Shown: one piece after another, positions 35,650 to 63,900 of the stretch | Layout of the letters: each line of letters opens with the position of its first letter | Position numbering within the stretch: position 1 is the stretch's first letter | Position numbers and translations under genes: made by a program | Notes under the pieces: generated by a model | What the model was told of the DNA's origin: nothing | The model's input: only the letters and a program-made list of their open reading frames with translations | Databases searched by the model: none | Assembly (NCBI RefSeq): GCF_021531815.1 | Contig: NZ_JADYUM010000002.1 | Span: forward strand, 124,001-188,000 | Origin: Pseudoflavonifractor phocaeensis | GTDB lineage: Bacteria; Bacillota; Clostridia; Oscillospirales; Oscillospiraceae | Direction: 5' to 3' | Length of the DNA: 64,000 bases

Positions 35650-35678
35650 ATAGAGCACCTCCATCATTGCTTGATCCT

Positions 35679-45323: not shown

Positions 45324-45327
45324 ATAT

Positions 45328-45403: not shown

Positions 45404-45406
45404 GTG

Positions 45407-45483: not shown

Positions 45484-45486
45484 GTT

Positions 45487-45563: not shown

Positions 45564-45566
45564 GTA

Positions 45567-45641: not shown

Positions 45642-45647
45642 AAATTG

Positions 45648-45715
45648 TGGAGATCCGCGCCGGGCTCGAACCGGTCATTGCAACCGTGAAAGGGTTGTGT
45701 CCTAACCATTTAGAC
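45648..45715 (-). pseudogene. tRNA-Glu (TTC) with its 5' acceptor strand missing
   Basis: The D arm (GTCTAAATGGTTAGGAC), anticodon arm (loop CTTTCAC on CAACC/GGTTG), T arm and 3' strand GCGGATC-T-CCA are intact. The 5' strand should be GATCCGC, but the bases there read ATAATAT and cannot pair. The change falls exactly at the border with the recQ fragment, so the gene has been cut by a rearrangement or insertion. Confidence 0.75.
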
Positions 45716-46246: not shown

Positions 46247-46249
46247 GTG

Positions 46250-47311: not shown

Positions 47312-47471
47312 TCTCAATTTTCGTTCCTTTTTGCATCTAAAAAAGCACGGAATTGCTTTGAAATGAGCGTTTTTTAGTGAACGATAGGTAACATGAGTAT
47401 AAGGTGGCATACGCTGCAACCGACTACATACCCCTGCGGCGCATGTTTCCAAAATACGCGAAAGGACGCGA

Positions 47472-47735
47472 TTGAGTATGAAGTATATCGACTACAACAA
47501 CATGAAAGAATTCTACACGATTGAGGAGGTGTGTCGCCTGTTCGAGCTGGACAAGCAAACCCTTCGGCACTACTGCAAAAAGTATGGAATTGAGCCGCAG
47601 GAGGACCAATATGGTAACTGGGGCTTCCGGAAGGTTCTGGTCCGTAGGCTGCACAACCACATCTATCAGGAGCAGAAGGCCACAGGGCAGGGTACAGGAT
47701 ACCGTGATAGGAAGCGGAGTGACCCATGGGGATGA
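47472..47735 (+). CDS. small helix-turn-helix protein
   Basis: 87 aa. FYTIEEVCRLFELDKQTLRHYCKKYGIEP is a MerR/excisionase-type winged-helix start (key part: VCRLFELDKQTLRHYC). TTG 47472 has AAGGA at a good distance; ATG 47478 is the alternative start. The end overlaps the next small gene. Probably a control or excision factor of the element. Confidence 0.6.
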   Translation: MSMKYIDYNNMKEFYTIEEVCRLFELDKQTLRHYCKKYGIEPQEDQYGNWGFRKVLVRRLHNHIYQEQKATGQGTGYRDRKRSDPWG

Positions 47736-47896
47736 CAGAGCTTTTGACGGTCAAAGAGGTGGCGGCATTTCTGAAGGTCAGCCGTACCCAGGTAAGAAGA
47801 CTGATCCGCTCCGGTCAGCTGAAAGGTATGATAATTGGCCGAGAGTATAGGATCTCGCTGGCCAGTCTGGCGGAGTTTACGGAGGAAGCTTTATAA
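47726..47896 (+). CDS. excisionase-type helix-turn-helix protein (56 aa)
   Basis: Short gene: MTELLTVKEVAAFLKVS, RTQVRRLIRSGQLKG, GREYRISLASLAEF. This is the compact HTH_17 (excisionase/DNA-binding) domain in full. It starts inside the end of the preceding gene (10-base overlap), so translation is probably coupled. Confidence 0.7.
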   Translation: MGMTELLTVKEVAAFLKVSRTQVRRLIRSGQLKGMIIGREYRISLASLAEFTEEAL

Positions 47897-48039
47897 AATC
47901 GAGTGTGCTAGTTATTGGAAAATCATGCCAGCGTCCATTATTTTTAGATTATTCCAAAATTAGAGAATGAGGTGCAGTCAGACATCGGATGTATGGCTTC
48001 CCAGATTTCGCAGACAAAGGTGTTATTGATTCCTCACAA

Positions 48040-48086
48040 AATAATGAATGGCCTCAGGAAATGTTCCCCTGAGGCCATTCATTATT
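48040..48086. terminator. 19-bp hairpin downstream of the small genes
   Basis: Arm AATAATGAATGGCCTCAGG (48040-48058) pairs with 48068-48086; short T runs follow on the minus strand. About 47 bases past the stop of the 77-aa gene. The 47897-48039 stretch before it shows nothing else. Confidence 0.7.
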
Positions 48087-48133
48087 TATTATTAAGGTAC
48101 AGGATCAAAAAATGTGCAAATGGAGATATTTTG

Positions 48134-48367
48134 TTATCTTCTGTGCTTTATTGCTTCGGCGACCTCTTCCTTGGAATATCCTCGCTCCTGCAGCAGCAGG
48201 GAGCAGGCAGCCCTCTGCTGATAACTGCCATAGTGAAGGTTCCGGAACAACTGATCATCGCTGTAACAATCCAGTCGATCCTTGAGTTCCTGAATCTCCG
48301 CAGCGTTTTGTTGCAGAGCGTCATAAGCACTGCTTCCTGCTTTTTTTAATGTATCAAAAAATCCCAT
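48134..48367 (-). CDS. hypothetical small protein (77 aa)
   Basis: MGFFDTLKKAGSSAYDAL, helical, then LKDRLDCYSDDQLFRNL and a C-terminal QERGYSKEEVAEAIKHRR. AGGAGAG sits about 9 bases upstream of ATG 48367. Unrecognised; the amphipathic N-terminus and EEV-AI motif are typical of small soluble helical proteins. 14 bases after the zinc-ribbon gene and probably co-transcribed with it. Confidence 0.6.
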   Translation of the reverse strand: MGFFDTLKKAGSSAYDALQQNAAEIQELKDRLDCYSDDQLFRNLHYGSYQQRAACSLLLQERGYSKEEVAEAIKHRR

Positions 48368-48381
48368 CGTCTGCTCTCCTC

Positions 48382-48513
48382 TCAATATTTTCTGGATACC
48401 TTCCAGGTGTGGGGCTTATCTCCTGTTTTACGAGGACACTTTCCCGGTTCAGGGCGTCCCTTCCCATCAATTTTGATTACTCTCTTTCCGCACCAAGTGC
48501 ACTGGAACTCCAT
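48382..48513 (-). CDS. small zinc-ribbon protein, 5' region displaced by a rearrangement
   Basis: 43 aa from ATG 48513: MEFQCTWCGKRV, GRPEPGKCPRKTG, HTWKVSRKY. CxxC plus a further Cys and His look like a small zinc-binding fold. The ATG is the very first codon after the breakpoint that also cuts hsdS, and no ribosome site lies upstream. If the 48513-60180 segment is inverted, the bases before 60180 supply AGGGTG and ATG-GTG-GCG-GTT-GTC-AAG-CAT in frame, giving a 50-aa protein. Confidence 0.6.
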   Translation of the reverse strand: MEFQCTWCGKRVIKIDGKGRPEPGKCPRKTGDKPHTWKVSRKY

Positions 48514-49502
48514 AAATAAGCAACCGTTGAACCCGCCTGCAATCCGTCAATCTGTTTCCTAAACCCCGGCATTGTGAATAGATGGGAAATGTACAGAGCT
48601 GTAACAGAATTAGAGAACTGTGATAGCCAAGTAATCATTCCATCTTGAAAGTAAAACTTATCCTCTGGTTTAATGATATAGCATCGTCCTAATGTACCCC
48701 GTGCTGTAACAAGAATATCTCCACTCTTAGGAACAAGCCCCAGTTCAAGTAATTCTGAAAATCTTGACTCTGGAATATACAAATCACAATCATTTATTCC
48801 TGTATCCATTTTGTTAACCAAGTCAGAAATCCTTAAGAAAGGAACCCCTTCTGTACTCTGTTCGTTTTGATATATTCGTTTGCTTGAACCTACTTCACAA
48901 AGTTCTCCAAGAGATTCAGTTTTCCAACCCTTATTGTTATATTCTGGGTCGCCAAACAGTTCGACAAATCGAGCTTTGACCAACTCGTCCAGCTTGGCAA
49001 GTTGCTGCTTGCGTAGGGAAATCAGATGATAAATATGTCCAAGCTGTTTTGCGGCTTTTTTCTGTTCTTCCAAACTCGGAAGCCTAATCTCAATATTTTC
49101 AACGATGCTTTTAGATATTTCCTTAAATGTTGCTCCTCGTCCAAGCGAATTTAAATAGTCTGTTTTACTCTTGAGGAAAAAATAGAGATACTCATTAAAA
49201 ATTACATCAGAACAAATTAGATTCTTAAATCCCTGATTACAGCACAATTCACATCCCGCGATTGCAGTTTTACCAATAGGCGCACGAGATGACAAAATGA
49301 CTGTACCCGCCGGCATATAGGATAACCCTGTTTTTTCTTTGCCGAGTTCTGAGATATGTCTCTGGGAATCAAAAAGATAACAGCTATCTTCATTCAGTTC
49401 AGCGGGTGTTATCCATTTAACATCTCCATCCCAATACTCCGGGATGTTTGTTTTTGGGGTGGAGCCAGACACGACTGTGCATATATCTCCTAATCTCGCC
49501 AT
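48477..49502 (-). pseudogene. hsdS: type I specificity subunit HsdS, 3' end displaced
   Basis: 341 aa as read. Two target-recognition domains (first MARLGDICTVVSGSTP, second from TESLGELCEVGSS) separated by the conserved helix SLEEQKKAAKQLGHIYHLISLRKQQLAKLDELV (part). The second domain reaches GLQAGSTVAYL (residue 330) and then reads WSSSALGAERE-stop, which is not family sequence. The expected continuation SISxxKK-PPIELQNQF is present at 60181-60348 on the plus strand. ATG 49502 overlaps the hsdM stop by one base. Confidence 0.85.
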
Positions 49503-50998
49503 CACAGCATCTCCTCCAGTTCCATCAGGCCCTGGGTGATCTGCATCTCCAACTCATGCAGATCTGCCATGATCTCCTGGGTGGAGGGGTACTCCACGGG
49601 CTTGTACTCCGTCTTTTTATACTTGTTGATGGACAGGTCGTAGCCGTTTTCCACGATCTCGGCCTTGGGGACAAAGAAGGACTGCTCCGTACGCTGGCGG
49701 TTCTCCTCATTCTGCAAATTGTGAAACCGGGCGACGATGTCGGGGATGTCGTTTTCCTTAACTTCGGTGCGCTTATCGTCCAGGCTGAACCCATCGGCCT
49801 GCATATCATAAAACCACACCTTGTCCGTGCCGCCATGGCCTGTCTTTGTGAACACCAGAATACCGGTGGACACGCCTGCGTAGGGCTTGAACACGCCGGA
49901 TGGCATGGAAATGACCGCTTCCAGCCGGTTGCTGTCTACAAGCTCCTTGCGGATGGCCTTGTGGGCGGTAGAGGAACCAAACAGCACGCCATCGGGCACA
50001 ATGACCGCTCCCCGGCCGCCCACCTTCAGCATCCGCAGGAACAGGGCCAGGAACAACAGCTCCGTCTTTTTCGTCTTGCAGATCTTCAGCAGATCAGCGG
50101 AGACGATGTCCGCGTCCAGGCTGCCCTTGAAAGGCGGGTTGGCCAGAATAAGGGAGTACTTCTCTTTGTCCGTGTTCTGGTCGCTGAGGCTGTCCCGGTA
50201 CTCAATGAAGGGGTTGTCGATGCCGTGAGTCATCATGTTCATGGCGCCGATGCGCAGCATGGTGCGGTCCATGTCGTAGCCATGGAACATGTGGTTCATG
50301 TAGTGGTCCTTCTTCTGCTTGTTGAAGAAGATCTCTTCCTTATAGTTCTCTTTCAGATACTCACCGGCGGACACCAGAAAACCGGAGGTGCCGCAGGCCG
50401 GATCACAGATCACGTCGTCCGGCCGGGGCTGCATCAGCTCCACCATCATGCGGATGATATGGCGGGGAGTGCGGAACTGGCCGTTGACGCCGGCGGTGGC
50501 AATTTTACTGAGGAGGTATTCATAAATGTCGCCGCGGGTGTCGCTGTCCTGCATCTGCGCCATCTGCTCATAAATGCCGTCCAGAGCGGTGACGATCTTA
50601 TCCAGCATCAGCGGCGTGGGGATTTTGAAAATGGCGTCGTCCATATACTTGGCGTAGGCACTGGACTTATCCCCATGAAGCGTTTTGATGAACGGGAACA
50701 CCCACTCCTGCACAGTAGCGTACATTTTTCCCGCAGGGAAATCGTGAAATACCGACCACTTCAACTGATTGCCGGGAATGGTGCGGTCGCCGATCTTTAC
50801 CTCGTCAGCAAAGATACTCTTGTGAGGCAGGCCCAGCATGGCGCTCTCTTTTGCCCGCAGATTGTCGGTATCGTCCAGATCGCGGATAAACATCAGATAG
50901 GTCATCTGCTCCACGACGTCCAGCGGGTTGGTTATGCCGCCGGTCCAGAATACGGTCCACAAACTGTCGATCTTATTTTTCAGTTCACCAGTGATCAT
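49502..50998 (-). CDS. hsdM: type I DNA methyltransferase HsdM
   Basis: 498 aa, full length. N-terminal helical HsdM_N (LKNKIDSLWTVFWTGG), SAM motif I CDPACGTSGFLVSAG, catalytic motif IV ANPPFKGS, and a C-terminal helix contacting HsdS. Methylates adenine in the bipartite site chosen by HsdS. Start ATG 50998 immediately follows the fic stop. Without an intact HsdS in the present orientation the complex is expected to be non-specific or inactive. Confidence 0.93.
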   Translation of the reverse strand: MITGELKNKIDSLWTVFWTGGITNPLDVVEQMTYLMFIRDLDDTDNLRAKESAMLGLPHKSIFADEVKIGDRTIPGNQLKWSVFHDFPAGKMYATVQEWVFPFIKTLHGDKSSAYAKYMDDAIFKIPTPLMLDKIVTALDGIYEQMAQMQDSDTRGDIYEYLLSKIATAGVNGQFRTPRHIIRMMVELMQPRPDDVICDPACGTSGFLVSAGEYLKENYKEEIFFNKQKKDHYMNHMFHGYDMDRTMLRIGAMNMMTHGIDNPFIEYRDSLSDQNTDKEKYSLILANPPFKGSLDADIVSADLLKICKTKKTELLFLALFLRMLKVGGRGAVIVPDGVLFGSSTAHKAIRKELVDSNRLEAVISMPSGVFKPYAGVSTGILVFTKTGHGGTDKVWFYDMQADGFSLDDKRTEVKENDIPDIVARFHNLQNEENRQRTEQSFFVPKAEIVENGYDLSINKYKKTEYKPVEYPSTQEIMADLHELEMQITQGLMELEEML

Positions 50999-51000
50999 AA

Positions 51001-52056
51001 TCAGTCGTTCTCCCTGTTCCAAATGTAGGCGGTATAGCGTCCGCCGCTGAGTTTGATGATCTCGCCGCTTTTCTGTAATTCGCTTAGTGTCCGCTGCACG
51101 GTGGCCTGGCTGATGTCCGGGCATTTCTCCATGATCTCCACCTTGGTGATCTTGCCGAGGGTGTCTTTGATCAGTTCGCGGATCCGGTCTGGCTTGGACA
51201 GGCCCTTTGTTGTCAGAAACTGCACACGGGAAGAAAAATCTCGATAGGCAGCGACAATCACGCCCAGCATGTAGCGCACAAATGGCCCATAGTCGTTGGC
51301 GTTCTCGTGCCACCCGGCGGAGCTTTGCTGCAGGGCTTCGTAATAGGTCTCTTTGCTCTGCTCGATCATTTTTTCTATGCTGATATATTTACCGACAATA
51401 TATCCGGAGCGATAGAGAAGCAATAGCGTCAGCAAGCGGCTCATTCGGCCATTTCCGTCGTTGAACGGGTGGATACAGAGAAAGTCCAGAATGAACATAG
51501 GAATGATCAGAAGGGGATCAGCACCAGACTGCACCGCATCGTCGTAAGCTTTGCAGGCGAGGTCAATGGCTTCCGGCGTTTCCCAGGCGGGGACAGGCTG
51601 GAAGCGGATACGTCTATTGCCCTCACTGTCAGTCTCCGCAATAACATTGTCGGAATTTTTATAGTTGCCGCCAATGGATATGCCGCTGAACTTATACAGG
51701 TCACGATGAAGCTGTAGGATCATGGTCGGGCGCAGGGGGATATATTCATAGTTTTCGTGAATCGTTGTGAGCACATCTCGGTAACCAGCAATCTCCTGCT
51801 CATTTCTGGTACGGGGAGTGGTTTTATCCAGAACGATTTTTTTCAAGCGGTCATCGGATGTATAAATGCCCTCAATTTTATTAGAGGCCTCTGTGCTCTG
51901 AATTTTTGCAATTTCAACCAACTGCGTTAGTGTATCATGCTTGGCCTCGATGAAAAGGTTTTGTTCGCCTTTAAATTCATGTATTTGAGTCAGAAGCGCC
52001 ACAATATCGGCAGTGAGCAGCTTTTGCCACTCAGCGGTGAGCTGGTAGTTGTGCAT
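51001..52056 (-). CDS. Fic-family protein with C-terminal winged helix
   Basis: 351 aa. Fic core with the full catalytic motif HPFNDGNGRM (His196), so predicted AMP- or other nucleotide-transferase. The N-terminal inhibitory motif [S/T]xxxE[G/N] is present as S58NKIEG63 (class II, self-inhibited). C-terminal winged helix SQATVQRTLSELQKSG. Start 52056 has GAGG about 8 bases ahead. The stop touches the hsdM start, so it is the first gene of the hsd operon; such Fic genes recur in type I systems. Confidence 0.9.
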   Translation of the reverse strand: MHNYQLTAEWQKLLTADIVALLTQIHEFKGEQNLFIEAKHDTLTQLVEIAKIQSTEASNKIEGIYTSDDRLKKIVLDKTTPRTRNEQEIAGYRDVLTTIHENYEYIPLRPTMILQLHRDLYKFSGISIGGNYKNSDNVIAETDSEGNRRIRFQPVPAWETPEAIDLACKAYDDAVQSGADPLLIIPMFILDFLCIHPFNDGNGRMSRLLTLLLLYRSGYIVGKYISIEKMIEQSKETYYEALQQSSAGWHENANDYGPFVRYMLGVIVAAYRDFSSRVQFLTTKGLSKPDRIRELIKDTLGKITKVEIMEKCPDISQATVQRTLSELQKSGEIIKLSGGRYTAYIWNREND

Positions 52057-52197
52057 AAAAGATACCTCAACATTGTACATTCAGAATTGTTCTCAATTTA
52101 TTATATGGCTATTATACTCCCAAGTCAATCAATTTACTCATTTTTAGATTAATGATCAAATTGAGGGGCTGAGCTATAAAATAAACCATATTGAACG

Positions 52198-52752
52198 TCA
52201 GGGCACTGTATTCCGAACCTTGCGGTAAAATGTACTGGGCTTCATATTCAGACGCCGCATGGCCTCCGCTGCTGTAATTTCACCGCGCCTCCACATATCG
52301 GTGACCTCTTGGAAATGCGGCGGCGTAATAGGTTTTCGTCCGGTGTATTTCCCAGCCTTCTTCGCAATGGCGATTCCCTCGCGCTGTCGCTGCAAAATAT
52401 ACTCCCGCTCCAGCTCGGCCACGGCACCGAAGATAGTCAGCATAAACTTTCCGGTGGGGGTGGTGGTATCGATGGCCTCCTTGCGGGAGACAAACTCCAC
52501 ATCTTTTTTCGTCAACTGCTCCACCAGCTCCAGCAGATCCCGTGTGTTCCGTGCAAAACGGCTGATGGATTCCACGATCACCGTATCACCCTGGCGCACA
52601 TAGGCCAGCATCTTCTTCAGTTCCGGCCTGTCCGTATTTTTGCCACTGGCCTTGTCAATGTATAGCTGTTCCACGCCAAGCTCCTGCATCAGCACTTCCT
52701 GTCTGGCTGTGTTCTGTTCCTGGGTGCTGACCCGTACATATCCAACTTTCAT
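52198..52752 (-). CDS. small serine recombinase (resolvase/invertase)
   Basis: 184 aa. N-terminal catalytic domain with MKVGYVRVSTQEQNTARQ (catalytic Ser in YVRVST), KNTDRPELKKML, and IVESISRFARNTRDL, the E helix LEREYILQRQREGIAIAK, then a Hin/Pin-type HTH (ITAAEAMRRLNMKPSTFYRKV). Complete, so able to cut and rejoin short sites. It lies inside the 11.7 kb segment whose ends are split genes, and next to a repeat-rich region. Confidence 0.9.
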   Translation of the reverse strand: MKVGYVRVSTQEQNTARQEVLMQELGVEQLYIDKASGKNTDRPELKKMLAYVRQGDTVIVESISRFARNTRDLLELVEQLTKKDVEFVSRKEAIDTTTPTGKFMLTIFGAVAELEREYILQRQREGIAIAKKAGKYTGRKPITPPHFQEVTDMWRRGEITAAEAMRRLNMKPSTFYRKVRNTVP

Positions 52753-52769
52753 AGTTACATCTCCATTTT

Positions 52770-52875
52770 CCCAATAGGGTCAGTTTCCAAATTGGCACAT
52801 GCCAAAATGCCAAAACCAACCCTATTGGGACAGTTTTTTCCTATGCCATTGGGGTAAACCCTATTGGCACATGTT
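52770..52875. repeat. inverted and direct repeats upstream of the recombinase
   Basis: CCCAATAGGGT (52770-52780) is inverted as ACCCTATTGGG at 52819-52829 and partly repeated as ACCCTATTGG at 52858. ATTGGCACATG occurs directly repeated at 52790-52800 and 52863-52873. Arrangement fits res-type recombination sites or an autoregulatory operator of the adjacent recombinase. Confidence 0.55.
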
Positions 52876-52877
52876 TA

Positions 52878-53273
52878 TCAGGGCATGATGATGATTTGAC
52901 TGCCAATGTTCAGAAACAGTTCCGGCTTGGCAAACACCGTCTTATAGTGCTGTACCTGTTCATCGGTCAGAGAAGTAAAGTTTTCCTCATCCGGCGGGGC
53001 GCCGCAGAGGAGGAATGTTCCACAGACAACATCGTAGGCTTTCCCGGTATGAGGTTCCCGCAGCGCCCGGTTCATAGGCAGCCCCATCAGTTTTCCCTCA
53101 TCGTTGCAGATCAGAGCCACTGGTTCCTCAAAGGGATACAGCGCCTGGATCAAACCACCTACGATTTTTTGCATCGCGGCGAGACCGGAAGGGATTTCTT
53201 TTTCATAAGGGGCCTTTCCGGGTTCCACGATCAGAACGCGCAGCACAGCAGTTCTTGCTTCATATGGTTCCAC
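52878..53273 (-). CDS. DUF3846-type small protein
   Basis: 131 aa from GTG 53273, with GAGGAG about 10 bases upstream inside the preceding gene, which it overlaps by 14 bases. Sequence begins EPYEARTAVLRVLIVEPGK, with IPSGLAAMQKIVGGLIQALYPF and the family-like VALICNDEGKLMGLPMNRAL, ending in a FLNIGSQIIIMP tail. DUF3846 proteins are typical of integrative elements. Third gene of an amidoligase - GATase - DUF3846 operon; function unknown. Confidence 0.65.
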   Translation of the reverse strand: MEPYEARTAVLRVLIVEPGKAPYEKEIPSGLAAMQKIVGGLIQALYPFEEPVALICNDEGKLMGLPMNRALREPHTGKAYDVVCGTFLLCGAPPDEENFTSLTDEQVQHYKTVFAKPELFLNIGSQIIIMP

Positions 53274-54201
53274 AGTACAACATCTCCTCAACATCGTCGG
53301 TGGTAAATCCGTCCGCAAGCAGGGCATCCACATACCCGGATGAGAAGCCATAGAAAGACGCCACCGATTTCAATTCCCGGATATACTCCTGCTCAGCTGC
53401 AGTTTGGAGCGGGACATACCGGCTTCTGGCTGGAGGCTCCAGCAGAAAGGAATATGGGGCATACCAGCGGGAATACAGATTCCGGGTGTCAAAGGAACCA
53501 CGGGTCTGAAGTCCGTTTGCGTCGATTTTCAGAATCTCACCGCACTCCAGCTTGACCTGGGACGGCTTATCCAATCGATAGGGCATGTGAACGATAGCAT
53601 TTATGAGAATCTCCTCGGTAGAGGCGTAGAGGTACAGGCCGCTGTCGAGATAGTGGTAGATACACAGGGGATTATCCCCTTTAACGAAGTAGAGATCATC
53701 CCGGTCATCCAATACGGTAAAGGAGAAGGAGCCCTCCACCTGTTCCGCCATGTATTTCAGGCTGGCAAAGGTGAGGGCTCCCTGTTGCTGGAGCAGCTGA
53801 ACGGCTATAAAGCTGTCCGTCTCGATATTTGTCTGGGGCAACTTTTTCTCCTTGCGCAACAGAACATCATTGTACAGAACTCCGTTATGGGCCAGGGCAA
53901 AGGTATTGCTGCCCGCTCTGGCCTGGAAAGGATGATTATTGTTGTTACGCCGCGCGTCCCCCTGAGTAGTCATTCGGGCATGCCCCATGACCACTTTCGT
54001 CCCCGCCGGGATATGGAAACGGAGCTTGTGGCCGGGGACAGGGCGTTTGTACACCCGCAGCTTCCCCCGGGCGTTATAGGCAATCCCGGTGGCATCAGTG
54101 CCTCTGGCTTCGCTGGCTGCGGCCAGGAAATGGAGCATTCGTGACTTTTGCTTCTCGGAAAACTGGTCTCTTGGGTCAAGGATTCCAAACAGACAGCACA
54201 T
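53260..54201 (-). CDS. class II glutamine amidotransferase-domain protein
   Basis: 313 aa. N-terminal Ntn-hydrolase GATase II fold: MCCLFGILD gives the nucleophile Cys2 after Met removal, then RGTDATGIAY, GHARMTTQG, and AHNGVLYND, the usual Arg/Gly/Asn glutaminase-site elements. It would release ammonia from glutamine or cut/transfer gamma-glutamyl groups. The C-terminal ~90 residues have no recognised domain. Its ATG overlaps the amidoligase stop by one base (TGATG), so the pair should be made in equal amounts. Confidence 0.82.
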   Translation of the reverse strand: MCCLFGILDPRDQFSEKQKSRMLHFLAAASEARGTDATGIAYNARGKLRVYKRPVPGHKLRFHIPAGTKVVMGHARMTTQGDARRNNNNHPFQARAGSNTFALAHNGVLYNDVLLRKEKKLPQTNIETDSFIAVQLLQQQGALTFASLKYMAEQVEGSFSFTVLDDRDDLYFVKGDNPLCIYHYLDSGLYLYASTEEILINAIVHMPYRLDKPSQVKLECGEILKIDANGLQTRGSFDTRNLYSRWYAPYSFLLEPPARSRYVPLQTAAEQEYIRELKSVASFYGFSSGYVDALLADGFTTDDVEEMLYCGTI

Positions 54202-55310
54202 CAGATCTCCACCTCGCTCTCTACCGGCTCATTGACGTACAGTCGCCGCTCTTTCAGGTATTGGACCAGCTCCGGCTGGGTACATCCGGCGACGAAGGTG
54301 GTCCAGGACATGTTTTTCACTTCCTCGTCAGACAAGAAAAGGGCCACATCGCAGACCCTGTCAATGAGCTGCAATGTGGCGATCAAAGTATTGAGTTTTA
54401 AGGTCCCACGGAAGATGCGGAACTCAATGGTATCCGTGTTGGTCAGGTTGACGCAGGTGTATCTCCCAGCCCCATACCCTTTCTTGGCGTGGTCCAGGAT
54501 GTCACGGGGCTGCTCCTTGTAGCCGTACCGGGCTGCCCAGCGCTCCAGCTGGCGCTGGGTACGACGGCTGAACTTCAACAACTCGTCCCAGTGCTTCTCA
54601 AAGAAGTAGAGGATTCGAGCGATCACGGCGTCCTGCTCCGCTTCGGTCGGCCCAAAAGCTGCCCGGCTGACGTGGATGTGGAGGCCGCAGGTAGAGGCCT
54701 GATGGGACTGGTAGCCCAGCCGGACCGTTTCCCTCAGGATGTCCACCCAGGGCATCTCTTTCTGGTGAAAGGCCAGGGACATGGGATGGCTCACCAGTTC
54801 AAAGCCATCGTCCAGAGAGCCGTCATGTTTGCAGTACAGCAGCTCCGAACCGCCTCTATTTGCCACGTCCAGAATCTGTGACGCCTTGCTGTCAAGTTCC
54901 CCCGCTCCGTCGATCTCCAGCTCGACGCCCATGTAGCGGGGACCTTCTCCATAGAAAATGGGCTCCGGCTTATAATAGTAGTCGTTAATCCCCTTGGGTG
55001 AGGCGTAGTAGCAGACGTTGCAGTAGGGATACTCCTCATCCTCGTCGGAGTCCTGGTAGAAGGCCTCGGACCGTCTGAGAAGCATACCACAACGGGTGCA
55101 GGTGGTGTAGTGCTCGTCAAAACAGTCTTGGCACAAGGGATGCATTTCGGTCCCTGCATTGTTCTCCCACAGGATTCGTTCCCCGCACACCCGGCAAAGC
55201 GTGGTGTGTTCCGCCAAGCAGCTGGGACACAGCTCCCGTCCATCCACTTGTGTTCTCCGATCTGTCGGGTACTCGGCTCCGCAAATGCTACATACAAAGG
55301 TTTCTTTCAT
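54201..55310 (-). CDS. amidoligase (COOH-NH2 ligase fold) with N-terminal zinc ribbons
   Basis: 369 aa from ATG 55310 (AGGAGG 8 bases upstream). Residues 1-105 carry several CxxC pairs (CSIC, CPSC, CRVC, CQDC, CTRC, CNVC), i.e. multiple zinc knuckles. Residues 120-365 are an amidoligase: MGVELEID (Glu130/132), CKHDGSLDDGFELVSHP, CGLHIHVSR (His211, His213) and EFRIFRGTL (Arg). Family members join a carboxyl to an amine with ATP. Linked one-base-overlapping to a class II glutamine amidotransferase, a known gene partnership for this fold; the substrate is unknown. Confidence 0.85.
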   Translation of the reverse strand: MKETFVCSICGAEYPTDRRTQVDGRELCPSCLAEHTTLCRVCGERILWENNAGTEMHPLCQDCFDEHYTTCTRCGMLLRRSEAFYQDSDEDEEYPYCNVCYYASPKGINDYYYKPEPIFYGEGPRYMGVELEIDGAGELDSKASQILDVANRGGSELLYCKHDGSLDDGFELVSHPMSLAFHQKEMPWVDILRETVRLGYQSHQASTCGLHIHVSRAAFGPTEAEQDAVIARILYFFEKHWDELLKFSRRTQRQLERWAARYGYKEQPRDILDHAKKGYGAGRYTCVNLTNTDTIEFRIFRGTLKLNTLIATLQLIDRVCDVALFLSDEEVKNMSWTTFVAGCTQPELVQYLKERRLYVNEPVESEVEI

Positions 55311-55437
55311 GCTGTTTTCCTCCTGAAATTGATTTGGTCCCCGGGGAATTACCCCGAGGACCTTCATGGTTATAATATATATCTCTGTCTGGAAGGAAAC
55401 CAGAATGGTAATCGTCAATTCGGTACTGTCAAGAGTT

Positions 55438-56859
55438 GGACCTGTTGACAAAGTGGCGTATAAACCCTTTCTATGGTATAATAACCATAGGGAGGGATGT
55501 GGCATGATGGGGCGCCAAAGCAGACAAATGGCAATAATTTTCGTGGATATGGAGTCATTGATTCCAGAGAACCATCTGCTGCGGAAGATTGACCGGACAG
55601 TATCCTTTAATTTTATCTATGATCTTCTGGCACCGTATTATCCGGCGACTGGCCGTCCATCTGTCGACCCTGTCAGTATGTTCAAAATGCTCTTGATTGG
55701 ATATCTGTATGGCATCAAATCAGAGCGGCGGCTGGTAGAGGAAGTTCAGCTCAACATCGCCTACCGATGGTTCTGTGGATTCGAACTGGATGACGCCATC
55801 CCGGATCACTCCACATTCAGCAAAACCAGGACACGCAAATGGCAGCAGAGCAACCTTTTTCAGAAAGCCTTTTATGAAATCGTGAAACAGTGTATAGCTG
55901 GCGGCCTTATAGATGGAAAAGCCATGGCTGCGGACGGAAGCTACATTCCAGCCAACGTATCAAGAGAAAGCTGGATTGATGTAGAAATAGAAGTTGAGCA
56001 AAGTATGCAAAGCTATCTTGACTCCTTGGATGAAGAACTTTCCAACCAGCCGGGGTTCAAAAAGCCGCCAACGAGAATAGCACGGAAACGTCGCACTACC
56101 AGCCATACGGATCCAGACAGCGGCTATATTAATCACGGCAGTAAACGCGGCATTTTAACAGGCGTTGATGTATATCCTGCCAATGAGAAAGAAAGTATCC
56201 TGGTCTTGCGGCATTTGGAACGGCAAATCAATCTTGGTATCCCAATGAAACGACTTGCTCTGGATCGCGGATATGAAACTGGTGCTGTCCACCGGGGACT
56301 GGAACTTCTGGGTATTACCGGATATATCCCTGCAATCCAGTTCTCCAATCCACCCGAGAAATATGGGTTCTCCTACGACCCGCAACAGGACGCGTTCATT
56401 TGTCCGGAAGGAGTTCCTCTTACATACCACAGGCTAAATTGCAACAAATCGACCGGAAAATATCTGCGTTGCTACCAAGTCGAGGGCGACGCTTGTATGC
56501 GCTGTTCAAAACGACAGAGTTGTTTTGACAAGGCTGGAATTCGGCGCAGGGTGCTGGCCAGCAGCTGCTATCCAGCATTTTTCAGAGGACATCAGCGGGT
56601 GGGAACTCCGGATTACCTATCTATGATGCGGCTTCGTAAAATCTGGGCCGAGGGCAGCTTCTCCGTTTTAAAACGGGAACACTGTATTTCAAAGATTCGA
56701 AAAAGGGGCATTCTTGCAGCCACGGAAGAATGCCTCCTTGCTGCCATGGCCCTAAACCTTAAAAGAATGGTAAATGCTATCTTTTTCTATCTCCAATTCC
56801 AATGTTCTGCCGAAAAACCTGTGGGTTTCGGCAGAATTTTTGCTTTTGTCAACAGGTCC
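55438..56859 (+). mobile_element. IS1182-family insertion sequence
   Basis: Bounded by a 15-bp perfect terminal inverted repeat, GGACCTGTTGACAAA at 55438-55452 and its complement at 56845-56859, around one transposase gene. The left end carries the TATGGTATAATAACCATAG palindrome that is also present in the second, decayed copy at 57823. Confidence 0.75.
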
Positions 56860-56910
56860 CTTATCTTACATTATCCTATTCAATTTACCGCAAGTCGCCT
56901 TTTGCTTTGA
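55504..56910 (+). CDS. IS1182-family transposase
   Basis: 468 aa from ATG 55504 (or 55507), GGGAGG upstream. N-terminal DUF772-type domain (NHLLRKIDRTVSF, YGIKSERRLVEEV, DHSTFSKTR), DDE residues in AADGSYIPANVS, LALDRGYETG, and the Glu of WAEGSFSVLKRE, with a C-rich CMRCSKRQSC insert. YINHGSKRGILTGVDVYPAN appears to lack about 14 residues that family members have between KRG and TGVD. The reading frame also runs 51 bases past the right inverted repeat, so its last ~17 residues are host DNA. Activity doubtful. Confidence 0.88.
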   Translation: MMGRQSRQMAIIFVDMESLIPENHLLRKIDRTVSFNFIYDLLAPYYPATGRPSVDPVSMFKMLLIGYLYGIKSERRLVEEVQLNIAYRWFCGFELDDAIPDHSTFSKTRTRKWQQSNLFQKAFYEIVKQCIAGGLIDGKAMAADGSYIPANVSRESWIDVEIEVEQSMQSYLDSLDEELSNQPGFKKPPTRIARKRRTTSHTDPDSGYINHGSKRGILTGVDVYPANEKESILVLRHLERQINLGIPMKRLALDRGYETGAVHRGLELLGITGYIPAIQFSNPPEKYGFSYDPQQDAFICPEGVPLTYHRLNCNKSTGKYLRCYQVEGDACMRCSKRQSCFDKAGIRRRVLASSCYPAFFRGHQRVGTPDYLSMMRLRKIWAEGSFSVLKREHCISKIRKRGILAATEECLLAAMALNLKRMVNAIFFYLQFQCSAEKPVGFGRIFAFVNRSLILHYPIQFTASRLLL

Positions 56911-57008
56911 CGCTTACAAAGGGACTGCCTCAATCTGCACGTGGCATTTTGAGACAGCCCCTTTATTGTTCCTACATAGCAAACTACACCAATGCTTTTC
57001 AACAAGGC

Positions 57009-57335
57009 TCAATAGTTGCAATTACACCATTTCTTTAGTATCCCAACAATCTCCTCGTCTCCGGAATTTAGGAGTGAAAATAGCGTTTTTAGCATGCCTT
57101 TATATATCTGACATTTATAGTCGCTAGGATTCAATGCGAAAAGGTTATTGTTCTCATAATAATTTAGAACGGGGCATGTACCACAAAACGGCGAAAATAC
57201 ACAATCTGAGCAGAGCGGAGAGCTCTCTAAACATGATGCAGTAGCCAGCGCTTTGCAGACAGAATTGTCAAAAAGATCTTGATAATTTGATTCGATGGTT
57301 CCTAATTGAAAAGAATGGTCTAAGACATACATTCA
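57009..57335 (-). pseudogene. C-terminal remnant of a radical-SAM/SPASM peptide maturase (HxsB-like)
   Basis: About 107 codons: SFQLGTIES, then a SPASM cluster SCLESSPLCSDCVFSPFCGTCPV (key: CSDC, FCGTCPVLNY), NPSDYKCQIYKGML and a short tail. This is the auxiliary Fe-S region of radical-SAM maturases, closest in feel to HxsB of His-Xaa-Ser systems. The radical-SAM CxxxCxxC core and any precursor peptide are missing. Confidence 0.5.
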
Positions 57336-57476
57336 GGGTGCTTACCGAAACATAACCTAAGGCCCAAGCCAGTAACGATTTGGTTGATGGCTGCGGTAGG
57401 AATCTTCTCCAATTGCCCAAAAGACCTTTGCGGAAATCTTTTATAAACAGAACTACGCTCTCAACAATCACATACA

Positions 57477-57626
57477 TCAAAGCAAGGCACTTGTAACTAT
57501 GCTGTCAAACCGACCATAATGGCCAACGTAAAAACGAGTAACACCGTAATCGACAATGTGCTGACGGATGGCACTAAGAATACATGGGTATATCTCATCA
57601 GGGGTTGAGGCGTGTCCAATAAAAAG
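57477..57626 (-). pseudogene. N-terminal remnant of a SLOG-family protein
   Basis: About 49 codons: FIGHASTPDEIYPCIL, IRQHIVDYGVTRFYVGHYGRFDSIV, TSALL-stop (the middle one slightly shortened here: YGVTRFYVGHYGRFD). This matches the start of SLOG proteins that read FIGHRDTP-EI... and VGHYGRFD. The rest of the gene is absent. Confidence 0.45.
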
Positions 57627-57822
57627 CAAGATTTACTCATGACTTCGTCGAGTAGACTTTCGGGGTCGTTATCGATTAAGTCTCCATGCTTACTTGGGCC
57701 GGGCGTAAAATTTTGTGTAAGCGTTTTTCGACAAAAGTCAAGAATGGCGCTGGGAAGCAGAGCGGATTTTGGCCTGAATCCCTTGGTAACCGAGAGGCAG
57801 GTACATCCAATGTATCATCGCA

Positions 57823-58254
57823 ATATGGTAAAATAACCATAGGGAGGGATGTGGCATGATGGGACGCCAAAGCAGACAAATGTCAATGATTTTCGTAGAT
57901 ATAGAGTCACTGATTCCAGAAAACCACCTTCTGCGGAAAGTCGACCGGATGGTGTCTTATGACTTCATCTATAATCTTCTGGCACCATATTACGATTCTT
58001 TCTGGCCATTATAAAAACCTCCAATGTGGTGCTCTTATTCTACACCACATCGGAGGTTTACACAAATTTTGGGATGGTCTCCGCGGGTATGAGACTGGTG
58101 CTGTCCACCGGGGACTGGAACTTCTTGGCATTACCGGATATATCCCTGCAATCCAATTCTCCAATCCACCCGAGAAATACGGCTTCTCCTACGACCCGCA
58201 ACAGGACGCGTTCATTTGTCCGGAAAGAGTTCCTCTTACATACCACAGGCTAAC
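57823..58254 (+). pseudogene. second, broken copy of the IS1182 transposase with an IS256-type end inside
   Basis: 57823-58012 repeats the left part of the 55438 element (same palindrome, then MMGRQSRQMSMIFVDIESL up to LLAPYY). 58082-58254 repeats the middle (YETGAVHRGLELLGITGY to PLTYHRL), nearly identical to 56264-56436. The 69 bases between are foreign: a 17-bp hairpin (AAACCTCCAATGTGGTG, 58015-58059) followed by GGTTTACACAAATTTTGGG, which resembles IS256-family ends. Confidence 0.65.
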
Positions 58255-58395
58255 ATAATGCGTACTGGAACAACGCAGCGCTCCAGTGGAAATACGCATT
58301 GTAACAATGGCTGAATTCCATAAAAGCGGCTCCTTTGAGCGACACCTTTCCCAGAAAAAGTGTCTGCTTTTTAAGGGAAAACAGTACTGATTTTA

Positions 58396-59646
58396 TCACT
58401 CCGGCAGATACGGATAGCCGGAGCTCACCCAATAGTCTCCCTTCTCCAGGGCCGCTTTGGTAATTTCTCTGCCCCAGTGAACCTTGCCGCGATAGTTGCC
58501 CTCTACTACAACAATACTGTTCTCGTTCTTTTCCAGTACCACGACAGAGTGAGACTCATTGATTCTGACATAATCCCCCGGTCTGATCCAGTCAAACACG
58601 GCATTCTTGACATCTTCTTCAGAGGTACTATAGGCGTGATAAGAAAGTCTGGAGCTCTGGTCCACGCCAAAGATGTCCTCTACCACATAGCTCCCAAACG
58701 CCGCACAGCCCGAAGCACCCGCAATCCCATATTCGTCATAGTAAAAGTAGTTGTCATCTCCGCTGAGCATACCCTCGGGATATTTGGATTTCAGAGAGTA
58801 CATCACCTCTTGAATATGCTCGGGCGTGATGGTCTTACCGTTCTTCAGTCTCACATCCGGAGTCAACCCTTCCATGGCGTCTTTATCTCCCGCGTTCAGC
58901 CAATAGTCAGGAGTGTGAAATGTCATATACCACCACACATCCGTGTTGTTCACAGGCTTGCCCGCCTCCTGGCTCACCAGCTCCATGGCCTTCCTTAAAA
59001 CCACACAGGCCTGTGCCCGGGTCACTTTTCCTTCTCCATCAAAGGTTCCCGCACTGTCAATGCCGCTCATACAGCCAAGCTTATATACCATGCTTATGGC
59101 GGAATTGTATTGCCAGCCATAGTTGTCAATCACGTCATAATCAGGGATATCATCGATTACCATATGCTCATATACGTCATTCAGATCCAAATGATACATC
59201 AGGTAGTTTGCCAGCATCATCGCCATGTTTTTTCTGGACATACCGTTGTTTACATATTTGGAATCCCACTGCTCCCGGCCATTGACCATTTCATATGTAT
59301 AAATGGCCGGCTGTCTGGTCAAAAGCTCATTTTCCAGCGCGATATGCAGAAATGAGCCATACCAGGTATCGTATTCCTTTGTGTTGGCAGCCAGTTCATC
59401 AGGAAAAAATGCTCTCACCATCATAGTGGCAAACTGTGCCGTGGTCACTTCACCGTTGGGTGCGAACTTCCCCTCGCCCACACCAGACACAATTCCTCTT
59501 GATGCCATCTCCTCAATGGCCGAACAAGCCCAGTGGTCTGTTGGCACGTCGGAAAAGGTCCGAACGTCTGCGGCAAATGCTGAAGAAGCCATGATCCCAA
59601 CCATCATAGCCGCTGTCAGCGCCAGTGAGATGAGTTTTTTCTTCAT
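58396..59646 (-). CDS. secreted SLH-domain protein with a CHAP/NlpC-like C-terminal domain
   Basis: 416 aa. Signal peptide MKKKLISLALTAAMMVG to ASSAFA. SLH repeats at about 30-75 (FSDVPTDHWACSAIEEM, GIVSGVGEGKFAPNGEVT), a second near 110-150, and a third near 170-230 (GTFDGEGKVTRAQACVVLRKA), which should bind cell-wall polymers. The C-terminal ~100 residues hold GASGCAAFGSYV (Cys), SHSVVVLEK (His) and EGNYRGKVHWG, the order of a papain-like cell-wall peptidase. GGGGAGA before ATG 59646. Probably a wall-anchored amidase/peptidase. Confidence 0.75.
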   Translation of the reverse strand: MKKKLISLALTAAMMVGIMASSAFAADVRTFSDVPTDHWACSAIEEMASRGIVSGVGEGKFAPNGEVTTAQFATMMVRAFFPDELAANTKEYDTWYGSFLHIALENELLTRQPAIYTYEMVNGREQWDSKYVNNGMSRKNMAMMLANYLMYHLDLNDVYEHMVIDDIPDYDVIDNYGWQYNSAISMVYKLGCMSGIDSAGTFDGEGKVTRAQACVVLRKAMELVSQEAGKPVNNTDVWWYMTFHTPDYWLNAGDKDAMEGLTPDVRLKNGKTITPEHIQEVMYSLKSKYPEGMLSGDDNYFYYDEYGIAGASGCAAFGSYVVEDIFGVDQSSRLSYHAYSTSEEDVKNAVFDWIRPGDYVRINESHSVVVLEKNENSIVVVEGNYRGKVHWGREITKAALEKGDYWVSSGYPYLPE

Positions 59647-59757
59647 ATCTGCGTCTCCCCTATCTTTTTTCCGATTTTTCTCTCCGGTCTAGCCTTCTGC
59701 ATGGACCCTGGGAGCCCTAAAGCCCCTTACCTTCCGCCTCTATTGTTGGATGGCTTC

Positions 59758-59785
59758 ATTTTACCACAATTCTTCTACAATACAA
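59758..59785 (-). promoter_or_regulatory. promoter of the SLH-domain gene
   Basis: Minus strand TTGTAT (59785-59780), 16-base spacer, TAAAAT (59763-59758). Confidence 0.6.
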
Positions 59786-59811
59786 CATGAATTGAATATC
59801 CCGCCGAAAAA

Positions 59812-59846
59812 ACGGCACTGCCGGGAGCGATCCCATGCAGTACCGT
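59812..59846 (-). terminator. hairpin, terminator-like
   Basis: 10-bp stem ACGGCACTGC with one mismatch, T6 on the minus-strand side. It would end a minus-strand transcript coming from 59913-60180, where the open run (DKEIDHKCRSLQVFW, EEKRAEDARAIRTFG) resembles nothing I recognise. Confidence 0.5.
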
Positions 59847-60179
59847 CTTTTCTCAAGTTTTCATTTTAGTCCCAAAGAGTCCAGAAACGGTAAAAGTGCG
59901 GTACAGTCGCCCTTACACCTGTCTCGGAGTCTCGCCCTCAGAACCGAAGGTTCTTATGGCTCTGGCATCCTCGGCGCGCTTTTCCTCGATGGATTCCTTC
60001 AGGATCATATCCTTCTGTTGATCTACTGGAATTGTCCAAAATACTTGAAGGCTGCGGCACTTGTGATCAATTTCTTTGTCACGGATCCGATTCCTTATAT
60101 CGACGAATTTATTATGGTGGCCGGACTTCTGGCCAGCGATCGATAGAAAGGGTGAACAATGGTGGCGGTTGTCAAGCAT
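59847..60179. other. stretch without a supported gene, ends at the inversion breakpoint
   Basis: Carries only the unrecognised minus-strand run noted above and, at its right end, AGGGTG followed by ATG GTG GCG GTT GTC AAG CAT (from 60160), the presumed displaced start of the zinc-ribbon gene now at 48513. Confidence 0.5.
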
Positions 60180-60180
60180 A

Positions 60181-60348
60181 TCTATATCTATGACTAAGAA
60201 GTTGGTGGTCATGTTACCACCGATTGAATTACAAAATCAATTCGCAGATTTCGTTGAACAGACCGACAAATCAAAATTGGCCGTACAACAAAGCCTTGTT
60301 AAACTGGAACTACTGAAAAAAGCCCTGATGCAGAAATACTTCGGATAA
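60181..60348 (+). pseudogene. hsdS: C-terminal part of HsdS, separated from the rest of the gene
   Basis: 55 codons and a stop: SISMTKKLVVMLPPIELQ, NQFADFVEQTDKSKL, AVQQSLVKLELLKKALMQ, KYFG. This is the conserved C-terminal helical end of HsdS. It lies 11 bases before the small gene that precedes hsdR. Joined to residue 330 of the HsdS at 48477 it gives a 385-aa protein of normal length, in frame. Confidence 0.9.
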
Positions 60349-60359
60349 GGGGTTGCTCA

Positions 60360-60920
60360 ATGAATGCTGAAATTTTGAATAACTCATGGCACTATTATTC
60401 TGTTGTAGAAAAAGATTTAGCAAACACTTCTCAGTATGTTGAACCTCGTGGACAGGAAAATGTGTACTCACTTGAATTTGCAAAAATATTGATTTTAGCT
60501 TGTACTGAAGTGGAATCATTATTTAAAATGTTGTGCAGCGAAATAACAGACAGCTCTGTATCAGCAGATATGGCAAGTTATAAAGGCATTATTTTAGGTA
60601 AATATCCGCGAATTGTGGATGCAACGGTGAGCGTAAGCCGACTAGGCGCAACTATAAGGCCCTTTGGTGCATGGAGTAGCGGAAAACTAGCATGGTGGGA
60701 TGCCTATCAAAAGGTGAAGCACGATAGGGGAAATTGCTTTTCTGAGGCAACCTATATGAATGCAGTTTATGCAGTGGCAGCTATGCACATTTTACTGCTA
60801 TATCTCTCCAAGATGATTGCTGGTTCACAAAGTGGCAGTACAGGGTATCTGCAGACACAATACTCACCGCAGTTTCTTTGCGTTAGACCCCCAAAGGAGC
60901 TTCCAGATTTTGAATCATGA
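60360..60920 (+). CDS. hypothetical protein within the hsd operon (HEPN-like features)
   Basis: 186 aa, ATG 60360. Mostly helical: LEFAKILILACTEVESLFKML, then WWDAYQKVKHDRGNCFSEATY and AAMHILLLYLSKM. The helix with KHDR near the middle resembles the Rx4-6H/KH-R region of HEPN-type RNase or nucleotidyl-transferase partners, but no motif is firm. Located between the hsdS end and hsdR, 48 bases before hsdR, in the same direction, so likely an accessory part of this restriction operon. Confidence 0.6.
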   Translation: MNAEILNNSWHYYSVVEKDLANTSQYVEPRGQENVYSLEFAKILILACTEVESLFKMLCSEITDSSVSADMASYKGIILGKYPRIVDATVSVSRLGATIRPFGAWSSGKLAWWDAYQKVKHDRGNCFSEATYMNAVYAVAAMHILLLYLSKMIAGSQSGSTGYLQTQYSPQFLCVRPPKELPDFES

Positions 60921-60968
60921 AACTATACTGCTCACGTGTAATCAATTAGAGATAGCAGGTGAATCCGT

Positions 60969-63900
60969 ATGACCAACTTCGACTTTCTGATCTCCGACCC
61001 ACAATTCAATACCTTCGCCTCTGTTGCTGTCTCCGCCGAGCGCATCTTACATATCGACCCCGCCGCATGTGTGCTGAACTGCCGGCGGGCCATGGAGTTT
61101 GCCGTCAAGTGGATGTATTCCGTGGACGGCTCCTTGGTGCTTCCCTATGATGACCGGCTGGTTTCTCTGATGGATAACGAGGATTTCCGGGACATCGTTG
61201 GTCAGGACATCTGGCGCAGGATGAAGCTGATCCGCACCCTGGGCAACAACGCCGCCCACACAGGGAAGAAGATCAGCGAGGAGCAGGCGGCGCTGTGTCT
61301 GGAAAACCTCTTTGTCTTTCTGGATTTTGTGGCCTACTGCTACGGCACGGACTACACCGAGCGGACCTTTGACCCTGCGCTCTTAAAGGACGCGCCTGCC
61401 GCTCCGCCGCTCGTTGACACGGAAGCCGAAGTTAAGCTGGAGCAGCTCATGGCGGAGAACGCCGCTCTGCGGGAGGAACTGACCGCCCGCCGGGCTGAGC
61501 AGCAGCAGACCTATGTACCGAAGCCGCTGGATCTCAGCGAGTACAAGACCCGCAAGATCTACATCGACGCCATGCTGCTGGACGCCGGCTGGACAGAGGG
61601 GCGGGACTGGCTCAATGAAGTGGAGCTGCCCGGTATGCCTAACAAGAGCGAGGTGGGCTATGCCGACTATGTGCTCTACGATGACACCCACAAGCCCCTG
61701 GCTGTGATTGAGGCCAAGCGTACCTGCTTGGATGTGTCCAAGGGCCGCCAGCAGGCGAAGCTCTACGCCGACATCCTGGAGCAGAAGCATGGTCGCCGTC
61801 CGGTGATCTTCCTGACCAACGGCTTTGAGACCCGGATTGATGATGGCGCCTACCCGGAGCGCAAGGTAGCGACCATCTACTCCAAGCGGGATCTGGAAAA
61901 GCTGTTCAATCTGCGCACCATGCGGACAAGCCTGAAAAACGTGATGGTGGACAAGCAAATCGCGGGCCGCTATTATCAGGAAAGCGCCATCAAGGCCGTC
62001 TGCGACAGTTTCGACCGGCGCAACCGCCGCAAGGCACTGCTGGTCATGGCCACCGGCTCCGGCAAGACCCGGACGGTCATCGCCCTGTGCTATGTGCTGC
62101 TGAATCACGGCTGGGTAAAGAATATTCTGTTCCTGGCGGACCGCAATTCTCTGGTGACCCAGGCCAAACGCAGCTTTGTGAACCTGCTGCCCGACCTGTC
62201 TGTCACCAACCTGTGCGAGGAAAAAGACAACTACACCGCCCACTGCGTGTTCTCCACCTACCAGACCATGATGAACTGCATTGACGCAGTGAAGGATGAA
62301 CAGGGGAAGCTATTCACCTGCGGCCACTTTGATCTGGTTATCTGCGACGAGGCCCACCGCTCTATCTACAACAAGTACCGGGATATTTTCAACTATTTTG
62401 ACGCCCCGCTGGTGGGTCTGACTGCCACCCCCAAGGACGAGATCGACAAGAACACCTACGAGGTCTTTGAACTGGAGAGCGGCGTACCTACTTATGGCTA
62501 CGAACTGGCCCAGGCCGTCAAGGACGGTTTTCTGGTGGACTTCATGAGCGTGGAGACCAAGCTGAAATTCATCGAGCAGGGCATCACGTATGACGAATTG
62601 TCCGATGAGGATAAAGCCGCCTATGAGGACACTTTTGAAGATGAGAATGGTGAGCTGCCGGAGCGGATTAGTTCCTCCGCCCTGAATGAGTGGGTATTCA
62701 ACGAGGACACCATCAAGGAAGTCCTGCATATTCTCATGACCAACGGTCTTCGAATCGACTACGGCGAGAAGCTGGGAAAGACCATCATTTTTGCGAAAAA
62801 CCACACCCACGCGGAAAAAATCTTTGAGATTTTCAACCGGGAGTATCCCCATCTGAACGGCTACGCAAAGGTTATCGACAACTATATGACCTATGCCCAG
62901 AGCGCCATTGACGAGTTCTCTGACCCGAAGAAGCTGCCTCAGATTGCCATTTCCGTTGATATGCTGGATACCGGCATTGATGTGCCTGAGGTTTTGAATC
63001 TGGTGTTTTTCAAGAAGGTCATGAGCAAGGCGAAGTTCTGGCAGATGATCGGTCGCGGCACCCGCCTGTGCCCCGGATTGATCGACGGAGAAGATAAGAG
63101 CAAGTTCTACATCTTCGATTTCTGCGGCAACTTTGAGTTTTTCCGCATGAATACGGGCAGGCCGACTGCCAACCAGATGGCGCTGCAGGGAGCAATCTTC
63201 AATCTGAAGGCACAGATGGCATATAAGCTGCAGGACCTTCAATTTCAGACGGATGACCTGATTGCATTCCGTAAGGAACTGGTCGCGGACATGGTGCGGA
63301 AGATCCGGGAACTGAACAAGGAGAACTTTGCCGTCCGGCAGCATCTGAAATATGTGGAACTATACGCCAACCCCGACAACTATGCTGCTCTCAGCTACGA
63401 GGATACGCTCATTATCAAAGAGGAATTGGCTCCGCTGATTACGCCTGACGAGGATGACCCCGCCGCCATGCGGTTCGACGCGTTGATGTATGGTATTGAA
63501 CTGGCCTATCTGGTCGGCAAGAAGTACACCCGCGCCAGAAGTGACTTGTTCAAGAAGGTCAAGGGTATTGCCGGAGTCGCCAACATTCCTGAAATCAAGG
63601 CAAAATCTGAATTGATTAATCAAATTCTGCACACGGATTATCTGGACAATGCGGGTATCAATGAGTTTGAACATATTCGTGAAAACCTGAGAGACCTCAT
63701 CAAGTACATCCCCGTTACCAAGATCCGGTATACGACCAACTTCGATGACGAGATCCTGTCGATGGACTGGCACGAATCCGAACTGGAAAACGATGATCTC
63801 AGGAACTACAAGGCGAAGGCTGAGTTCTATGTGCGGCAGCACCAGGACGAGGCTGTTATTGCGAAGCTCAAGAGCAATGTGCCTTTGACGCGCGATGATG

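Follow-up and report, generated by a model that had tools for sequence, protein, structure and literature searches.

How a type I restriction-modification (R-M) operon comes to have its specificity gene on two strands, and whether such an arrangement is one position of a switch or the trace of a single accident, is the question raised by a locus of Pseudoflavonifractor phocaeensis (contig NZ_JADYUM010000002.1 of assembly GCF_021531815.1, a 2.67-Mb draft in 45 contigs). The stretch analyzed here, hereafter the window, is 64,000 nucleotides long (124,001–188,000 of the contig), and positions are counted from its first letter. All the components of a type I system are present, namely hsdM, hsdR, and hsdS, the last in two pieces that together comprise two recognition domains and two conserved regions (Table 1). 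Most likely, a single, non-homologous, one-time inversion split hsdS and inactivated restriction.

The first evidence comes from hsdS itself. As had been read in the initial annotation, the present protein is normal up to GSTVAYL and then continues with 11 foreign residues (WSSSALGAERE-stop), the genuine hsdS sequence ending at 48513 and the missing end being found on the plus strand, where it runs to 60348. Crossing over at the TAT shared by both places, three common bases by our count, was proposed to give an in-frame HsdS of 385 aa, and in-silico joining of the two pieces yields exactly this length from ATG, or 386 aa from a GTG one codon earlier. In the GTG-start numbering, the joined protein aligns with the HsdS of three relatives in the genus, G055 (residues 1–385, 45% identity), G017 (residues 2–386, 38%), and G014 (residues 1–386, 32%). 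In L120, a locus of a metagenome-assembled genome from goat caecum (JAFQCR010000001.1), hsdS is unsplit and shares its second recognition domain with the window's gene; across the joint it reads FRKQIDSLQAGSTVAYLSIAMTKKLDVMLPPIE, the joined window gene reads FRKQIDGLQAGSTVAYLSISMTKKLVVMLPPIE, and both the protein and the DNA alignment pass through the joint without a gap, each present half matching L120 at the DNA level solely on its own side. Collinearity of the fragment starting at 60181 with the end of HsdS had been set beforehand as the test of the proposal, and it is this gapless run through the L120 gene from which the hsdS body on the minus strand and the hsdS end on the plus strand are recognized as one gene. 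Joint-spanning HsdS alignments numbered 75, from 69 loci, and were gapless over residues 315–347 in 37 and gapped in 38, although the set is not one of independent cases (G055, for example, is counted twice, as L043 and L074). Apart from the shared TAT, which leaves the exact point uncertain by 3 bases, the joint shows neither loss nor gain of bases.

The same exchange was also expected to return the leader MVAVVKH in frame to a small zinc-ribbon gene, as the in-silico join does. The piece at 48513 begins on its own with MEFQCTWCGK, and joining places the leader directly before it (start of the joined gene, MVAVVKHMEFQC). Four homologues at E≤1e-5, besides the window's own, were found in 394 genomes of the order, and the count of leaders was restricted to these, weaker matches being left out. 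With start codons chosen by us, a short, lysine-containing leader stands upstream of the [EV][YF]xCxxCG motif in 4/4 (MSDIKRIEYIC; MANQKIEYMC, with a GTG start; MGIVTTIKWVEYTC; and MAPIKKLQSTVYMC). The claim that two in-frame repairs by one inversion are beyond chance is thus upheld for hsdS by the gapless L120 gene and for the zinc-ribbon gene by these leaders. Against the zinc-ribbon protein, plasmids and phages gave 1 and 3 weak matches, respectively (E of 0.1 or worse), and the genus gave two, with an internal stop (E about 0.01). We regard the support for this joint as good but lesser than that for the hsdS joint; it is carried by the leaders, the DUF6116-like gene beside them offering only a hint. 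The fragment at 60012–60143 of the latter is identical at 19/37 positions to a small gene of G317 in a single comparison (E=1e-10), and its match to DUF6116 itself is weak, under the curated cut-off. At the G317 locus (L048), the zinc-ribbon gene, a gene that is J-domain-like by eye, and that small gene, which has a DPLPFIDE motif, are consecutive on one strand, and this is the one locus of the four in which a DUF6116-like gene lies on the same strand within 1.3 kb of the zinc-ribbon gene. As a separate observation, a second copy of a DPIPYIDE motif occurs in L158 (1261–1575; G021:C3), at the end of a frame with no obvious start and with no zinc-ribbon neighbor.

The ancestral order of the genes was sought in the best 80 of 522 relatives retrieved by a scan with an hsdR alignment. 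Upstream of hsdR, 69 of the 80 loci have hsdM, the hsdS body, or the hsdS end; in 65/80, the hsdS body and end are in one frame; and all 43 loci that show fic as well have the order fic-hsdM-hsdS-hsdR. In the window, unlike in these 43, the genes are not all on one strand. Not one of the best 80 hsdR loci has hsdM, hsdS, or fic on the opposite strand, and the flipped state appears in 0 of the 69 with upstream hsd genes. The initial annotation had named relatives with the same separation and an intact hsdS of other origin as evidence that would speak against it, and none was seen among these loci; its co-directional fic-hsdM-hsdS-X-hsdR is supported for the four genes other than X by the 43 loci. 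Because related loci keep the one-strand order, the arrangement in the window is, by comparative gene order, the derived state, of which one inversion is the shortest account. Among the remaining 11 loci, nine break off no more than 2.4 kb ahead of hsdR. Two of the loci, L065, with the closest hsdR (96%), and L068, are uninformative on orientation, as their sequence stops before any hsdS is reached (1.1 and 2.4 kb upstream of hsdR, respectively), and the hsdM matches of these genomes are on other contigs. Two others, L072 (9411–13270) and L076, have what are apparently orphan hsdR genes: neither hsdM nor hsdS lies in the preceding 10 kb, and their genomes have no hsdM match at E≤1e-40. No relatives of gene X were found in the genome contigs searched. 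In viral contigs, HsdS had no match, the 83-aa protein had one partial match, and the predicted ancestral and present junction strings were found 0 times in each of four scans; DNA searches gave three short, uninformative matches in plasmids and none in phages.

Table 1. Features of the split type I locus and its surroundings (window positions)
Feature	Position	Strand	Remarks
hsdS, truncated open reading frame	48477–49505	−	342 aa from GTG, 341 from ATG; Methylase_S, E=2.9e-40
hsdS, 3' end	60182–60348	+	last 55 residues, distal conserved region (SISMTKKL...KYFG)
Crossover point A	48512–48514	−	shared TAT
Crossover point B	60179–60181	+	shared TAT
Zinc-ribbon gene, larger part	48382–48513	−	43 aa; entered by the hsdS frame in a different reading frame
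Zinc-ribbon gene, missing first 7 codons	60159–60179	+	MVAVVKH
Small gene downstream of zinc-ribbon gene	48134–48385	−	83 aa from TTG
DUF6116-like gene	60012–60146	+	N-terminally truncated; directly upstream of zinc-ribbon leader
hsdM	49502–50998	−	open frame, 498 aa
fic-domain gene	51001–52056	−	opens the operon in this lineage
Gene X	60360–60920	+	186 aa, function unassigned; in L072, too, a homologue (52% identity) stands before hsdR
hsdR	60969–64000, on to 64259	+	open frame, 1096 aa
Promoter-like site	52100–52128	−	TTGACT-17-TATAAT upstream of fic; consensus match only; inside inverted segment
Serine recombinase gene	52198–52752	−	resolvase/invertase family; beside fic, inside inverted segment
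res-like motif cluster	52771–52867		three CCAATAGGGTY copies (one plus, two minus) upstream of the recombinase gene
V-type ATPase subunit D gene, relic	59913–60015	−	last ~34–40 codons; second junction

We propose that a segment of about 11,667 bp, bounded by points A, in hsdS, and B, in the zinc-ribbon gene, was inverted. This would have turned the fic-hsdM-hsdS(5') block round, splitting hsdS past its second recognition domain, depriving the zinc-ribbon gene of its first seven codons, and leaving the rest of hsdS, together with X and hsdR, on the opposite strand. The ends would have been joined without homology, whether by end joining or by some other illegitimate exchange, perhaps aided by the 3 matching bases, once, and in an island with other broken genes. 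As a result, the type I system would no longer restrict, with hsdR removed from the operon's likely promoter. Promoters were scanned for in two stretches, 51900–53000 and 59600–61000. The top site of the former matches the consensus at 11/12 positions and is directed away from hsdR, and the latter contains two weak promoter-like sites, both on the minus strand; the 3 and 2 sites observed compare with shuffle means of 1.6 and 2.5, so these sites are no proof. Because the present HsdS is without its last 55 residues, that is, the distal conserved region, and hsdR is cut from its likely promoter, restriction is very probably off. A loss of methylation is less certain, and HsdM may still methylate to some extent together with the truncated HsdS. 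A naturally truncated HsdS of 208 aa is described for NgoAV, with a specificity that differs from that of the full-length form (PMC9577141, PMC7394358), and as described there the truncation lies at another place in the protein. From the earlier view of the present orientation as the OFF state, what stands is that restriction is likely off, given the split hsdS and a promoter candidate that faces away; that it is one state of a switch is unsupported. The frames of hsdM, fic, X, and hsdR are all open, for which reason the event looks recent.

The two crossover points share little sequence. Over 30 bases on each side, the arms are alike at 6/30 and 7/30 positions, about what chance gives; the best 12-bp dyad scores at the crossover are reached by 14–99% of 2000 random windows; and a local alignment of 600 bp round both points has a score reached by 42% of random pairs. 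The half-sites are alike at 5–7 of 12 positions at the best offset, a comparison made without a control, and dyad sites with similar half-sites, as in a Hin-type switch, were not found at either end. The absence of a long inverted repeat, remarked on at the outset, was confirmed: between 48440–49505 and 18500–64000 there is no exact one of at least 13 bp, and there are three of 12 bp. One weak inverted pair linking hsdS to the tail, among the 25 of 157 matches listed, was set aside, being 20 nt at 85% between the conserved regions and off the crossover. Of random point pairs, 5.2% share three bases or more, so the three found here are a weak signal, compatible with microhomology joining. An HsdS match at E≤1e-30 is present in 6/64 genomes of the genus, including the source genome (G000), which holds its own copy alone, and no second full hsdS was found in G000, where a Methylase_S search adds a weak match on contig 6 (231-aa frame, E=1.3e-5). 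The initial annotation had left open whether the inversion is reversible or a one-time event, and the latter is favored here, as the crossover showed no inverted repeat of at least 13 bp, no unusual dyad, and no match to the motif of the linked recombinase, and neither a second full hsdS in the genome nor a flipped relative among 69 was found.

Several points nevertheless weigh against a one-time, non-homologous inversion. End joining is usually less tidy than an exchange that loses no base, and the hsdS joint, at which none was lost, is tidier than usual. The open frames throughout would also be expected of a reversible switch. With leader lengths varying, the zinc-ribbon joint can be placed only to within a few codons; at the other three zinc-ribbon loci, no DUF6116-like gene is found in 3 kb, and G021, the sole other genome of the genus with a homologue of the DUF6116-like fragment (1/63), has no adjoining zinc-ribbon gene. 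Finally, the orientation is known from one assembly of one strain.

Among the alternatives, we find improbable that of more than one step, in which separate translocations, or a transposition, brought the end of hsdS or the leader of the zinc-ribbon gene to its place. It draws on another junction about 165 bp away, at 60015, and on a transposase gene (DUF772, DDE_Tnp_1_6; presumably IS1182-like) that lies inside the inverted segment, at 55366–58258, along with a second copy that is broken; the transposase genes are, however, at neither crossover, and one inversion accounts for both halves of both genes. The junction at 60015 is that of a relic of a V-type ATPase subunit D gene. Fourteen loci outside the window, among 42, match 59881–60200, and all 14 matches, which are the ends of D genes as named from sequence, stop at 60014 or 60015. 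An intact D gene, 87% identical to the G003 protein, is present on contig 43 of G000 besides the relic. The relic meets the DUF6116-like gene head to head at 60015, each lacking its 5' end, and our guess is that the relic is the trace of an element that formerly used the 3' end of the D gene. With this further junction, the region has undergone at least two rearrangements, as suits an unstable island more than a tuned switch.

A reversible switch, in which a site-specific recombinase flips the 11.7-kb segment and so toggles restriction, appears quite improbable. The exchange without loss at the hsdS joint, the open state of the remaining operon genes, and the serine recombinase gene beside fic, inside the segment, would all suit it. 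Nonetheless, the crossover offers 3 common bp, no inverted repeat of at least 13 bp, and no unusual dyad; 0/69 relatives are flipped; and the pneumococcal systems are described as using inverted repeats of at least 15 bp (PMC7394358, PMC7096588). The recombinase, which has two paralogues in the genome (75–76%), is itself probably not the author of the inversion, because its likely site, the res-like cluster, lies elsewhere, upstream of its own gene, and no match to the motif is near either crossover in the window, the closest being 4 kb from one and 7 kb from the other, although it might act at unlike sites. Exact copies of CCAATAGGGTY are at 11355, 52771, 52818, and 52857; three within 100 bp, as in the 97 bp here, occurred in 0/200 base shuffles of the window. 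With up to one mismatch, the window has 9 copies against a chance mean of 14.6, and 93/100 shuffles have 9 or more, so the motif itself is not enriched and only the three-copy cluster stands out. By eye, the contig-11 paralogue has a similar arrangement ahead of its gene (L151, 3805–3915). Apart from the crossovers, the recombinase gene is part of a region with a class II glutamine amidotransferase, an amidoligase, and a DUF3846 gene (52198–55505), and the same recombinase-amidotransferase-amidoligase region occurs in L115 (13570–15801), beside a related type I system and downstream of hsdR; it is perhaps a traveling module.

We give very little credence to a switch with near-zero shared end sequence, a TAT core, run by a recombinase that tolerates unlike sites; if it did exist, one flip would break or rebuild a restriction system and a small zinc-ribbon gene together. 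It is equally hard to credit that the contig is wrong and the true orientation ancestral, since the junctions, although judged from the assembly alone in a 45-contig draft, are reciprocal, in single-copy sequence, and share 3 bases, false assembly inversions typically arising at long inverted repeats. The assembly itself shows one orientation, with one match on the hsdS side and, on the tail side, one plus the V-ATPase D gene.

Around the locus of this probable single inversion, other parts of the window deserve mention. A second hsdM-type methylase, a GmrSD_N gene, and a Schlafen/AlbA_2 gene lie near one another at 30052–35667, possibly as another defense cluster. Closer by, at 45249–48100, a cluster of five tRNA genes is followed by a C-terminal fragment of a RecQ-like helicase, a 354-aa gene with no Pfam match that is replication-initiator-like by eye, and an HTH_17 gene that we take to be excisionase-like. 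No integrase gene was noticed directly after this cluster, and the whole is perhaps the remains of an integrative element.

Inversions in hsdS are well known; compared with the known systems, the locus is set apart by what lies at its joints. Inverting type I loci of Streptococcus pneumoniae are reported with inverted repeats of 15 bp and longer, and a REBASE survey of inverting hsdS required repeats of 20 bp or more (PMC7394358, PMC7096588). As portrayed in those sources, SpnD39III/cod with PsrA resembles our locus in that a crossover within hsdS alters the specificity gene; however, it and the surveyed loci have at least two hsdS copies, inverted repeats, and exchanged recognition domains, whereas the window has one full hsdS, no such repeat, and a whole fic-hsdM-hsdS(5') block moved. 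Since there is no repeat of at least 13 bp and no second full hsdS, we would not file the locus as an inverting type I system. The recombinase HvsR of Mycoplasma pulmonis inverts between hsdS copies at defined sites, and no such site or second hsdS copy was found in the window. The hsd locus of that species, described as regulated by HvsR (PMC2268961), is by that account nearest to the window in effect, a DNA rearrangement controlling the enzyme. In Staphylococcus aureus, an hsdMS-mediated chromosome inversion is described as reversible and as occurring within nearly perfect inverted repeats of 1,748 bp (PMC6778178); the breakpoints are in hsdM/hsdS genes there, as far as the source describes them, and in the window one crossover likewise lies in hsdS, but here without homology at the joints. 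An hsdS inversion by microhomology or without repeats was not found in the literature searched, and we make no claim that none is in print. If both forms were seen in reads, the importance of the locus would rise greatly, as the hsdS inversion systems cited here all use repeats. An in-frame repair by a flip points to an inversion but does not by itself point to a switch, and genes annotated as a "truncated hsdS" and an "orphan hsdR" may together be one broken operon. Loss of an R-M system through chromosomal rearrangement is ordinary, and the window is like such losses in that one rearrangement would have broken the operon; it is unusual only in that a relative allows the hsdS joint to be located to the base. 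With the other joint located to a few codons, the locus offers a clean record of a probable non-homologous inversion.

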